Assembly: GCF_003610195.1 (NCBI RefSeq)
Contig: NZ_RAPO01000002.1
Coordinates: 682,001 to 746,000, forward strand
Direction: 5' to 3'
Source: Halopiger aswanensis
GTDB lineage: Archaea > Halobacteriota > Halobacteria > Halobacteriales > Natrialbaceae
DNA length: 64,000 nt
Below are positions 33,236-53,548 of the stretch, in pieces. How positions within the stretch are numbered: the first letter of the stretch is position 1; each line of letters opens with the position of its first letter. Under the pieces are notes generated by a model. The model was not told the origin of the DNA, ran no database searches, and was given only the letters and a program-made list of their open reading frames with translations. Both the position numbers and the translations under genes were made by a program.

Positions 33236-34045
33236 CTATCTGACTTCGGCGCGGTCGATCCAGCCCTGAATTCGCTTCTCGGAGATGTCGGTCTGTTCGG
33301 CCAGGTCGGCCGCGTCGGCGACCGCGAGTTCGTCGACGGTCTCGACGCCGGCGTCGGCGAGCCGGTCGGCGTACGCGGGACCGATACCCTTGATGACGTC
33401 GACGGGTTCGGAGTCGGTCGCATCGTCGGCTTCCGACTCCGGTTCGGGTTCCGGTTCCGGCTCGTCCTCGCTCTCGGTTCCGGTCTCGGTCTCCGCCGAC
33501 TCGTCGGTCGGCTCGGATTCCGATTCGGCTTCAGCTTCGGCTTCGGTGGCGGCCTCGGTCTCGGCCTCGGTCTCGAGATCGGTTTCCGCCTCCGGTTCGG
33601 TGGCCCCGTCGTCCTCGCCCGCGTCGCGGTCCGGTTCCGCGTCTTCGATCGCGACTTCGGCCTCGTCGATCTCCGTCGTTTCGGGTTCGGTGTCGGTCTC
33701 GGCGGTCTCTGCTGCCGTCGCTGCTTCGGCGTCGGCCGTCTCCGCTTCGGTCGACGCCGTGTCCGTATCCGCGTCCGTTTCTTTCGGGCCCGGCGATCCG
33801 GGCGGCTCGGGCGCCTCCTCGGACGTTTCCGTCGGTTCCGTCGGGGAGTCCGTCGACGCCGCGGCGTCGGTTCCGGAGGCAGCGGCCTCGTCCGCGGCCG
33901 CCTGGTCCGCCGGCGTCGATTCGGACCGGTCGCTCCCGCGCGATCCTTCGCGTTCGACCGTAACCCCGACCTCGCGGGAGCTTCGCGGCTCCGAGCCGGA
34001 CTCGTCGAGTCCCAACAATGACTTCAGCTTTTCGAGGATTGCCAT
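33236..34045 (-). CDS. Acidic protein with C-terminal helix-hairpin-helix domain
   Basis: The 269-residue product has a short N-terminal helix (MAILEKLKSLLGL) and then about 180 residues of Glu/Thr/Ala/Asp-rich low-complexity sequence. The C-terminal HhH domain reads DVIKGIGPAYADRLADAG, followed by a second helix pair and KRIQGWIDRAEVR. HhH pairs bind DNA backbone or proteins, and here the long linker would act as a flexible tether. The ATG at 34045 is backed by a TATA-like AATTTAAGT 27 bases upstream; a longer frame reading is not needed. Confidence 0.85.
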   Translation of the reverse strand: MAILEKLKSLLGLDESGSEPRSSREVGVTVEREGSRGSDRSESTPADQAAADEAAASGTDAAASTDSPTEPTETSEEAPEPPGSPGPKETDADTDTASTEAETADAEAATAAETAETDTEPETTEIDEAEVAIEDAEPDRDAGEDDGATEPEAETDLETEAETEAATEAEAEAESESEPTDESAETETGTESEDEPEPEPEPESEADDATDSEPVDVIKGIGPAYADRLADAGVETVDELAVADAADLAEQTDISEKRIQGWIDRAEVR

Positions 34046-51208: not shown

Positions 51209-51390
51209 GGATACGACATCGTCAACGGCCGGGGCGTAAAAGCCTGCTGAGATCGGGTGGAACGGTCGGTGCGTGCCGATTCGACGGTTCGCTGACGAAA
51301 CCCCGCGTCCGACAAAACCGCGAACCCGGACAGTGTCCGTTGGACGAACAGTCCGATATTCTCTTAACGTCGTACGTATTAGTCCAGTTA

Positions 51391-51822
51391 ATGGCAGTCG
51401 AAGCTACGAGCGCAGGCGCGATCCTCTTCCGCGACACGCGGGGCCGGCGCGAGTATCTTCTACTCAAGAGCCGCCCGGGCGACTGGGAGTTTCCGAAGGG
51501 CGGTGTCGAAGGAGATGAAGAGCTACAACAGACGGCGATCCGCGAAGTAAAGGAAGAGGCAGGTATCGAAGAGTTCCGGCTCCTCGACGGTTTCCGCGAG
51601 GACTACGACTACGTGTTCGAGGCGAACGGCAAGACGATCCACAAGACCGTTCACCTCTTTATCGCGAAGTCGTTCGAGGCCAGCGCGGAACTCTCAAACG
51701 AACATCGCGACCTCCAGTGGCGCGATTACGAACAGGCTGTAAACACCGTTACCCAGGACGGTCCGCGCGAGATTCTCGAGCAGGCCCACGAGTTCCTCGA
51801 CGAACGCGAGGAAGAGGTGTAG
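51391..51822 (+). CDS. Nudix hydrolase
   Basis: The 143-residue protein contains the Nudix box GGVEGDEELQQTAIREVKEE, near residues 34-56 in full with AGI. Upstream LLLKSRPGDWEFPKG fits a bis(5'-nucleosyl)-tetraphosphatase-like member. It hydrolyses nucleoside diphosphates linked to another group. The start at 51391 (MAVEATSAG) is used; a longer frame without protein character exists. A TATA-like CTCTTAACG lies about 30 bases upstream. Confidence 0.9.
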   Translation: MAVEATSAGAILFRDTRGRREYLLLKSRPGDWEFPKGGVEGDEELQQTAIREVKEEAGIEEFRLLDGFREDYDYVFEANGKTIHKTVHLFIAKSFEASAELSNEHRDLQWRDYEQAVNTVTQDGPREILEQAHEFLDEREEEV

Positions 51823-51876: not shown

Positions 51877-52312
51877 CTATCGTTGTTCGACGACGATGGT
51901 GTCCGCAACGAAGTCACCGACGCGTTGGTTCTCGTCGGTGAGCAGAATCATCGCTATCGCGACCAGGTTGAACGTCGGTAGCGAGTCGATGACCCACAGT
52001 ATATTCCGGATTCCGGAGGATCGACGCGCCGATCGTACAGTTCGATCCGTCCGATTTGACCACGACCAGGCCCAGCAGATACTTTCCGGGGGTGTAGCCG
52101 TACAGCCCCTCGAGCAGGAAGGCGTAGACGATCGTCACCGCGAACCCGACGAGTAGTGCCAGCGCGCCGATGACATCGCCAAGGAGCGTTCCGAAGCCGA
52201 CGAATACGCCCCAGATGAGTCCGACGAGTAGGCTATCGACGAGGAACGCGAGTATGCGCTGGCCGATCACATCGCCGTTCGTTCCCAACCGTGGTGCGGG
52301 ATATTTCTCCAT
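51877..52312 (-). pseudogene. RDD family membrane protein, frameshifted by a 7-bp tandem duplication
   Basis: The N-terminal part (VIGQRILAFLVDSLLVGLIW, then LLEGLYGYTPGKYLLGLVVV) is a clear RDD protein with two or three helices. After SILRN the reading frame shifts into junk. In the strand sense CCGGAAT occurs twice in tandem here (complement at 52003-52016). Removing one copy restores an open frame through ILWVIDSLPTFNLVAIAMIL and VGDFVADTIVVEQR to a stop at 51877-51879. So the gene is intact except for one extra 7-bp unit. It could be a fixed mutation, a switchable state or an assembly error. Confidence 0.8.
52003..52016 (-). repeat. 7-bp tandem duplication inside the RDD gene
   Basis: ATTCCGG at 52003-52009 is followed at once by an identical copy at 52010-52016. 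The added seven bases shift the reading frame by one. Confidence 0.9.
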
Positions 52313-52459: not shown

Positions 52460-53548
52460 GTGGCCGACGACACAGTCGATTCCGAGTTTGCCTTCGAACT
52501 CCGAACCTGTCGGTGGGCCGAGCGGGCGTGGCCCCCCGGTGGCAACGCCGGCGATAGCGACGGGCCCGCGACGATCGTCGCCCGGCAACTCGGCACCAAG
52601 CGCCGCCGCTGGGATACCATCGTTTTCGAGTGCGATCCCGGGGCCCTCCGACAGCGGGCGAAGTTCGGCGCGAAACGACTCGACGGCGACCTCCTCCATA
52701 TCGTCCGGAACGCGCCCGCCGAGTGGACCTACTACCGCGACGCCCTCCCGCATCCCGGCTACCCGTGGCGCTACGTCCGCGAGGCGATCCACCGGGCAGA
52801 CGACCGCGGGATCCTCGAGACCCGAAAGAACGGCAACCGGATCGAGATCCGGCGCAAGTGGCCCTACCCCGAGTGGGTCGAGCGCATCGTCGCGATCGAG
52901 AACAAGCCCGACCTGGACGCCAGCGCTGCGCGGACGCTGGGCCCGCAACTCGAGTACGACGTCGCAATGAGTCTCGCTGACGAGGTCTGGGTCGCGACCC
53001 AGCAGACGGGCGAACGCGTCGAACCGGTACTCCTCGAGGGCCTCCCCGTCGAAGCGGGCGTGTTGGCACTCGAGCCCGAGGCCCTCGAGGCGGAAGTCGC
53101 GTGGTACCCGCGCAGTCTCGCGGTCGAGGAGCCGGGAACGCGCATCCTCGAGCGACCGGACGACGGCGACCGCGGGGGATCGGCGGCGCGGTTCGAGTAC
53201 GTCGATCCCGAAGAAAAAGCGACGACGCGACGACTCATCGCCGAGCGGGCCTACGAGCGGGGGTGGCGTTCGTTCGCCGACACGATGCGGCCGGACTGTC
53301 GGCACTTCGAACTGCGCGCTGCGGGGCCGCAGGACGGCTCACAGCTGGTTCCCTACTGTACCGGAAAAGGGGACTGTCAGACCGCCGCCGAGTGCGCCGG
53401 TTCGTGTCCCGACTTTCAGCCGGAGCCACCCGTCTGGCGAACCAAGGGGTGGCCGATCGAGGGCGGGCCCGGAAAACGGCTCAAGCGGTTGCTCGCGGAC
53501 CGGCGCCGCCGCCGGCGACCGGGACTGGACGGCGGCGCGACGGAGTAG
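52460..53548 (+). CDS. DUF5787 family protein
   Basis: The 362-residue haloarchaeal protein begins with GTG and the text FAFELRTCRWAERAWPPGG. It matches what I know as DUF5787. The central part (DTIVFECDPGALRQRAKF; YRDALPHPGYPWRYVREAIH; IVAIENKPDLDASA) suggests a nuclease-like or DNA-handling fold, but that is uncertain. Near the C-terminus a Cys-rich stretch (PDCRHFEL, CTGKGDCQTAAECAGSCPDF) may bind zinc or an iron-sulfur cluster. Confidence 0.8.
   Translation: MADDTVDSEFAFELRTCRWAERAWPPGGNAGDSDGPATIVARQLGTKRRRWDTIVFECDPGALRQRAKFGAKRLDGDLLHIVRNAPAEWTYYRDALPHPGYPWRYVREAIHRADDRGILETRKNGNRIEIRRKWPYPEWVERIVAIENKPDLDASAARTLGPQLEYDVAMSLADEVWVATQQTGERVEPVLLEGLPVEAGVLALEPEALEAEVAWYPRSLAVEEPGTRILERPDDGDRGGSAARFEYVDPEEKATTRRLIAERAYERGWRSFADTMRPDCRHFELRAAGPQDGSQLVPYCTGKGDCQTAAECAGSCPDFQPEPPVWRTKGWPIEGGPGKRLKRLLADRRRRRRPGLDGGATE

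Follow-up and report, generated by a model that had tools for sequence, protein, structure and literature searches.

The window analysed here, a 64,000-nucleotide stretch of the Halopiger aswanensis genome, carries an RDD-family gene whose reading frame is broken by a short tandem repeat, flanked by conserved NUDIX hydrolase and DUF5787 genes (Table 1). From an ATG at 52310-52312 on the minus strand, the RDD frame is maintained as sequenced up to codon 101 (AAT, 52010-52012), after which translation runs into an out-of-frame TGA at 51914-51916. The preliminary description held that deletion of one 7-bp unit would yield a full RDD protein, and this was borne out: without one of the 7-mers, 142 codons can be read up to a TAG at 51877-51879, with 54 bp separating this stop from the NUDIX gene, which ends at 51822. 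The match to the Pfam RDD profile (curated cut-off 24.1) rose from 58 bits over profile positions 4-99 as sequenced to 73.9 bits over positions 4-136 with one unit removed. Among the conserved residues of the family, R19 and D26 are present, whereas D131, which by analogy would be the conserved third residue near the C-terminus, is encoded but out of frame as sequenced.

Table 1 Features at the RDD locus (positions within the window)
Feature	Position	Strand	Remarks
NUDIX hydrolase gene, convergent, conserved neighbour	51340..51822	+	Listed from a mechanically assigned TTG; translation may begin further inside
RDD-family (PF06271) membrane protein gene, frameshifted	51877..52312	-	142 codons plus stop with one 7-mer removed
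RDD gene 3' portion, codons 102-142 plus stop	51877..52002	-	Out of frame; coding constraint persists
Reading frame as sequenced	51914..52312	-	RDD codons 1-101, a 31-residue out-of-frame tail and TGA
Frameshifting insertion, period-7 repeat ATTCCGGATTCCGGA	52003..52017	no strand	2.14 copies
DUF5787 gene, divergent, conserved neighbour	52460..53548	+

The tandem 7-mer pair ATTCCGGATTCCGG was located at 52003-52016, exactly where it had been described earlier, although the period-7 match proved one base longer than claimed, so that the exact repeat on the plus strand is ATTCCGGATTCCGGA and ends at 52017. Counted as an exact 14-mer with at most one mismatch, ATTCCGGATTCCGG would be expected 0.04 times per window. 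As a class, however, exact tandem 7-mers occurred 9 times in the window against 9-11 expected from first- to third-order Markov sequences, so the 7-bp repeat is in itself unremarkable. What chance does not account for is its position, within a frame that all close homologues keep intact. Other periods were noted in passing. An exact 12-bp tandem duplication beginning CGGCCTCGGTCT lies at 33550-33575, where none is expected by chance for period 12; 6-bp tandem repeats numbered 63 against 31-38 expected, and 9-bp repeats numbered 4 against about 1, an excess of the pattern that in-frame duplications in coding DNA would give.

The lesion site was compared across 59 distinct RDD sequences, the window's copy included. 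All 28 other distinct homologues of at least 50% identity were intact past the lesion site, and none of the 28 carried a tandem repeat there; the close homologues showed an unduplicated RNLLW motif preceded by L, I or V, or a similar motif. Throughout the whole set only the window's copy was interrupted at this site, the rest being intact past codon 135 except for one distant match (35% identity) that merely ends early. Since all close homologues are intact and single-copy, the additional 7 bp represent an insertion gained on the window's lineage. A pattern scan of viral contigs found no one-copy allele. The comparison covered a single genome of the species and two of the genus, the window's own and that of H. 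xanaduensis.

Removal of one tandem unit does not return the sequence of the relatives at every position. It gives LRNILWVID and thus Ile102, whereas residue 102 is Leu in 19 of 19 aligned orthologues, Val in one further homologue (L048), and Val or Ile in more distant ones. When the 7 bp were instead removed one base aside (52002-52008), LRNLLWVID resulted, the same as in H. xanaduensis. Either a substitution also struck the codon adjoining the repeat, or the insertion was an inexact copy when it formed. With either origin, repeat-mediated reversion would restore the frame without the conserved Leu102, a detail of the sequence that speaks against an established switch.

The RDD frame behind the lesion contains no stop and no further indel. 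Against H. xanaduensis, dN/dS came to 0.239 before the lesion (codons 1-101) and 0.258 behind it (codons 102-142), and the corresponding values against N. texcoconense were 0.114 and 0.110. On the window's own branch, parsimony assigned four synonymous changes and one nonsynonymous change to the part behind the lesion; with about 75% nonsynonymous sites, at most one nonsynonymous change among five would arise without constraint in about 2% of cases (binomial), a figure that rests on few sites. Such equal constraint before and behind the lesion indicates that the break is recent, or that the sequence derives from a minority or erroneous state. Judged from these substitutions, the break appears to be recent relative to the split from H. 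xanaduensis, and a gene that is broken here, intact in relatives and little decayed further has the features of a recent frameshift pseudogene. Low decay is nevertheless also expected of a switching locus or of a sequence error, and does not separate these from a fresh fixed mutation. As a separate observation, dS against H. xanaduensis was 0.24 for codons 102-142 versus 0.74 for codons 1-101 (Fisher p about 0.03, from rounded counts), which possibly reflects a small recombination patch or chance.

The frameshift removes a conserved part of the protein. Hydropathy analysis showed three hydrophobic regions, the third of which (about residues 101-124) is lacking in the product of the sequenced allele. 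Among the 19 orthologues 41 columns are invariant, and 13 of these, D107, D131 and D135 included, lie behind codon 101. The product would accordingly be truncated after residue 101, without its third hydrophobic segment or the motif QRVGDxVADTxVV at the C-terminus. Structure prediction for the H. xanaduensis orthologue, in which confidence beyond residue 90 was low (mean pLDDT 63), tentatively placed two helices (94-107 and 110-122) and one strand (136-141) within the removed part or reaching across into it. We know of no transport tests on archaeal RDD members. The one RDD protein for which an experimental study was found, that of Halobacillus andaensis, belongs to the same Pfam family and reportedly acts as an antiporter, exchanging Na+(Li+,K+)/H+, in which the C-terminal D154 and D158 were indispensable for antiport and R35 and D42 of the first segment were not (PMC5996927). 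D131 and D135 of the window's protein show the same spacing as D154 and D158 and, given motif and spacing, probably correspond to them. Unlike the H. andaensis antiporter, the window's allele is without the C-terminal part, and its protein is short (142 residues). Because D131 and D135 are lost, by analogy with their indispensable counterparts in H. andaensis, the truncated product is probably inactive.

The order of the uS10-like, NUDIX, RDD and DUF5787 genes is common to H. xanaduensis, N. texcoconense and several others. In Natronorubrum bangense, the NUDIX and DUF5787 genes adjoin with no RDD gene between them; the uS10-like/NUDIX/DUF5787 block of this species is located on an 828-kb plasmid (NZ_CP031306.1; L059). 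An RDD homologue at E<=1e-10 was detected in 30 of 125 family genomes, the window's included, and this distribution, together with the absence from the N. bangense locus, marks the RDD gene as accessory. The conserved position and close identity to orthologues hint at a useful role, in other species at least. The window's genome contains one further RDD gene elsewhere, which is distant (35% identity), and no second copy of the RDD locus was found in it. A plasmid of H. xanaduensis bears a second, closely related RDD paralogue (G001:C1:4264-4641; L023, L055), 63% identical to the window's protein, indicating that this type of gene is also found on plasmids.

Taken together, these data are most probably explained by a recent spontaneous 7-bp tandem duplication that broke an accessory RDD gene as an accidental mutation, not as an evolved switch. 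Replication slippage would be the simplest maker of such a duplication in this haloarchaeal gene, and the proposal of slipped-strand mispairing in the preliminary description finds support in the single-copy state of the close homologues and the undecayed sequence behind the lesion. The duplication causes a frameshift after codon 101 and would thereby entail loss of function in a dispensable gene, and low-rate loss of the duplicated unit by the same slippage could in principle restore the frame.

A sequencing or assembly error, with a one-copy repeat and an intact RDD gene in the real genome, would also leave the frame behind the lesion undecayed, and the assembly is a 17-contig draft. To set this against the general quality of the sequence, about 117 ORFs were surveyed for frameshifts, covering 224 kb of the window's genome versus 160 kb of H. 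xanaduensis. Nine frameshift-like cases appeared on the window's side, and only in RDD did a single clean insertion fall within conserved coding sequence. In junction alignments of the other eight, indels were scattered and the sequence had diverged, and several contained A+T stretches resembling promoters; on these grounds they were read as spurious ORFs over intergenic DNA. With RDD as the sole clean interior frameshift, a generally error-ridden assembly is unlikely, although a single error would be compatible with this result. Even so, sequencing errors do not usually take the form of an extra exact 7-mer in a repeat of 15 bp, a length below that of any read, and the change from Leu to Ile that persists after unit removal indicates that the area has mutated anyway. 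An error was therefore considered unlikely.

Slightly less probable still is a phase-variable contingency locus, in which slipped-strand mispairing would gain or lose one 7-mer and turn the RDD protein off or on. The repeat is exact, its one-copy state is open and the downstream frame is still constrained, and a precedent exists for the kind of event. In some Listeria monocytogenes, prfA carries a truncating 7-bp duplication that is able to revert (Lindback 2011, as cited in PMC8874635), and this review, in its passage on prfA, attributes the loss to slipped-strand mispairing. Truncation of a protein by a revertible 7-bp tandem duplication is thus already known, and the RDD case resembles prfA in being a single exact 7-bp tandem duplication within a frame, truncating and revertible by losing one unit. 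The two differ in that, according to that passage, loss of the prfA repeat has been observed and several strains carry the duplication, whereas the RDD case is known from one sequence; moreover, no selection is known for the RDD case, and the gene concerned is archaeal and accessory and encodes a membrane protein.

A 2025 review defines phase variation by change at a single locus, reversible in both directions without selection, with a frequency of at least about 1 in 1e5, demands a hypermutable repeat number beyond chance, and cautions that chance repeats are not to be counted as evolved loci (PMC11868660). One 7-mer less does reopen the frame at a single locus, as frame-shifting variation in that sense would have it. 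In repeat number, however, the locus falls short, as it has two copies, the minimum, at the frequency expected for the base composition (9 versus 9-11). Retention or variation of the repeat at the same site in relatives, which is usual for phase-variable loci and not strictly required, was likewise lacking, the other homologues of at least 50% identity having no repeat at the lesion site, and reversion yields Ile102 in place of the Leu found in 19 of 19 aligned orthologues. The earlier suggestion that the gene is possibly switchable hence gains nothing from these data beyond the revertibility of any exact tandem duplication. The more specific proposal that the two-copy repeat genuinely switches a membrane protein, putatively a cation transporter, on and off, with on-state and off-state genome copies perhaps coexisting in a polyploid cell, is even more doubtful.

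Two further origins were weighed. The 7 bp might be the target-site duplication left as a footprint by an excised mobile element, since an element that excised exactly but left its target duplication behind would produce just such a perfect direct repeat of 7 bp; an unsystematic look found no element or remnant, and nothing links a 7-bp-duplicating element to the window's genome, making this very improbable. Programmed +1 ribosomal frameshifting at the repeat, by which the open and constrained downstream frame would be joined through ...IRNILW to give a complete protein longer by two residues, is the least probable, since the homologues are all single-frame without a shift site, so that recoding would be new, and no Rfam family or structure was found at the RDD locus.

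The preferred reading, an accidental duplication in an accessory gene, can be placed beside what is known of haloarchaea. Phase variation of the tail-fibre proteins of phiCh1 works by gene rearrangement, not repeat slippage. This haloarchaeal example (PMC4284463) involves viral proteins, whereas the RDD repeat lies in a cellular gene. A literature search on short-duplication frameshifts in haloarchaea retrieved nothing to the point, and the spread of phase-variable loci across archaea is described as still unmapped (PMC11868660). If switching were true, the RDD locus would rank among the rare instances in which a repeat mediates phase variation of a haloarchaeal cellular gene; a short tandem repeat whose loss restores a frame is, by itself, weak evidence for switching. 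As it stands, the RDD gene cleanly illustrates how an accessory gene loses its function through a fresh duplication.
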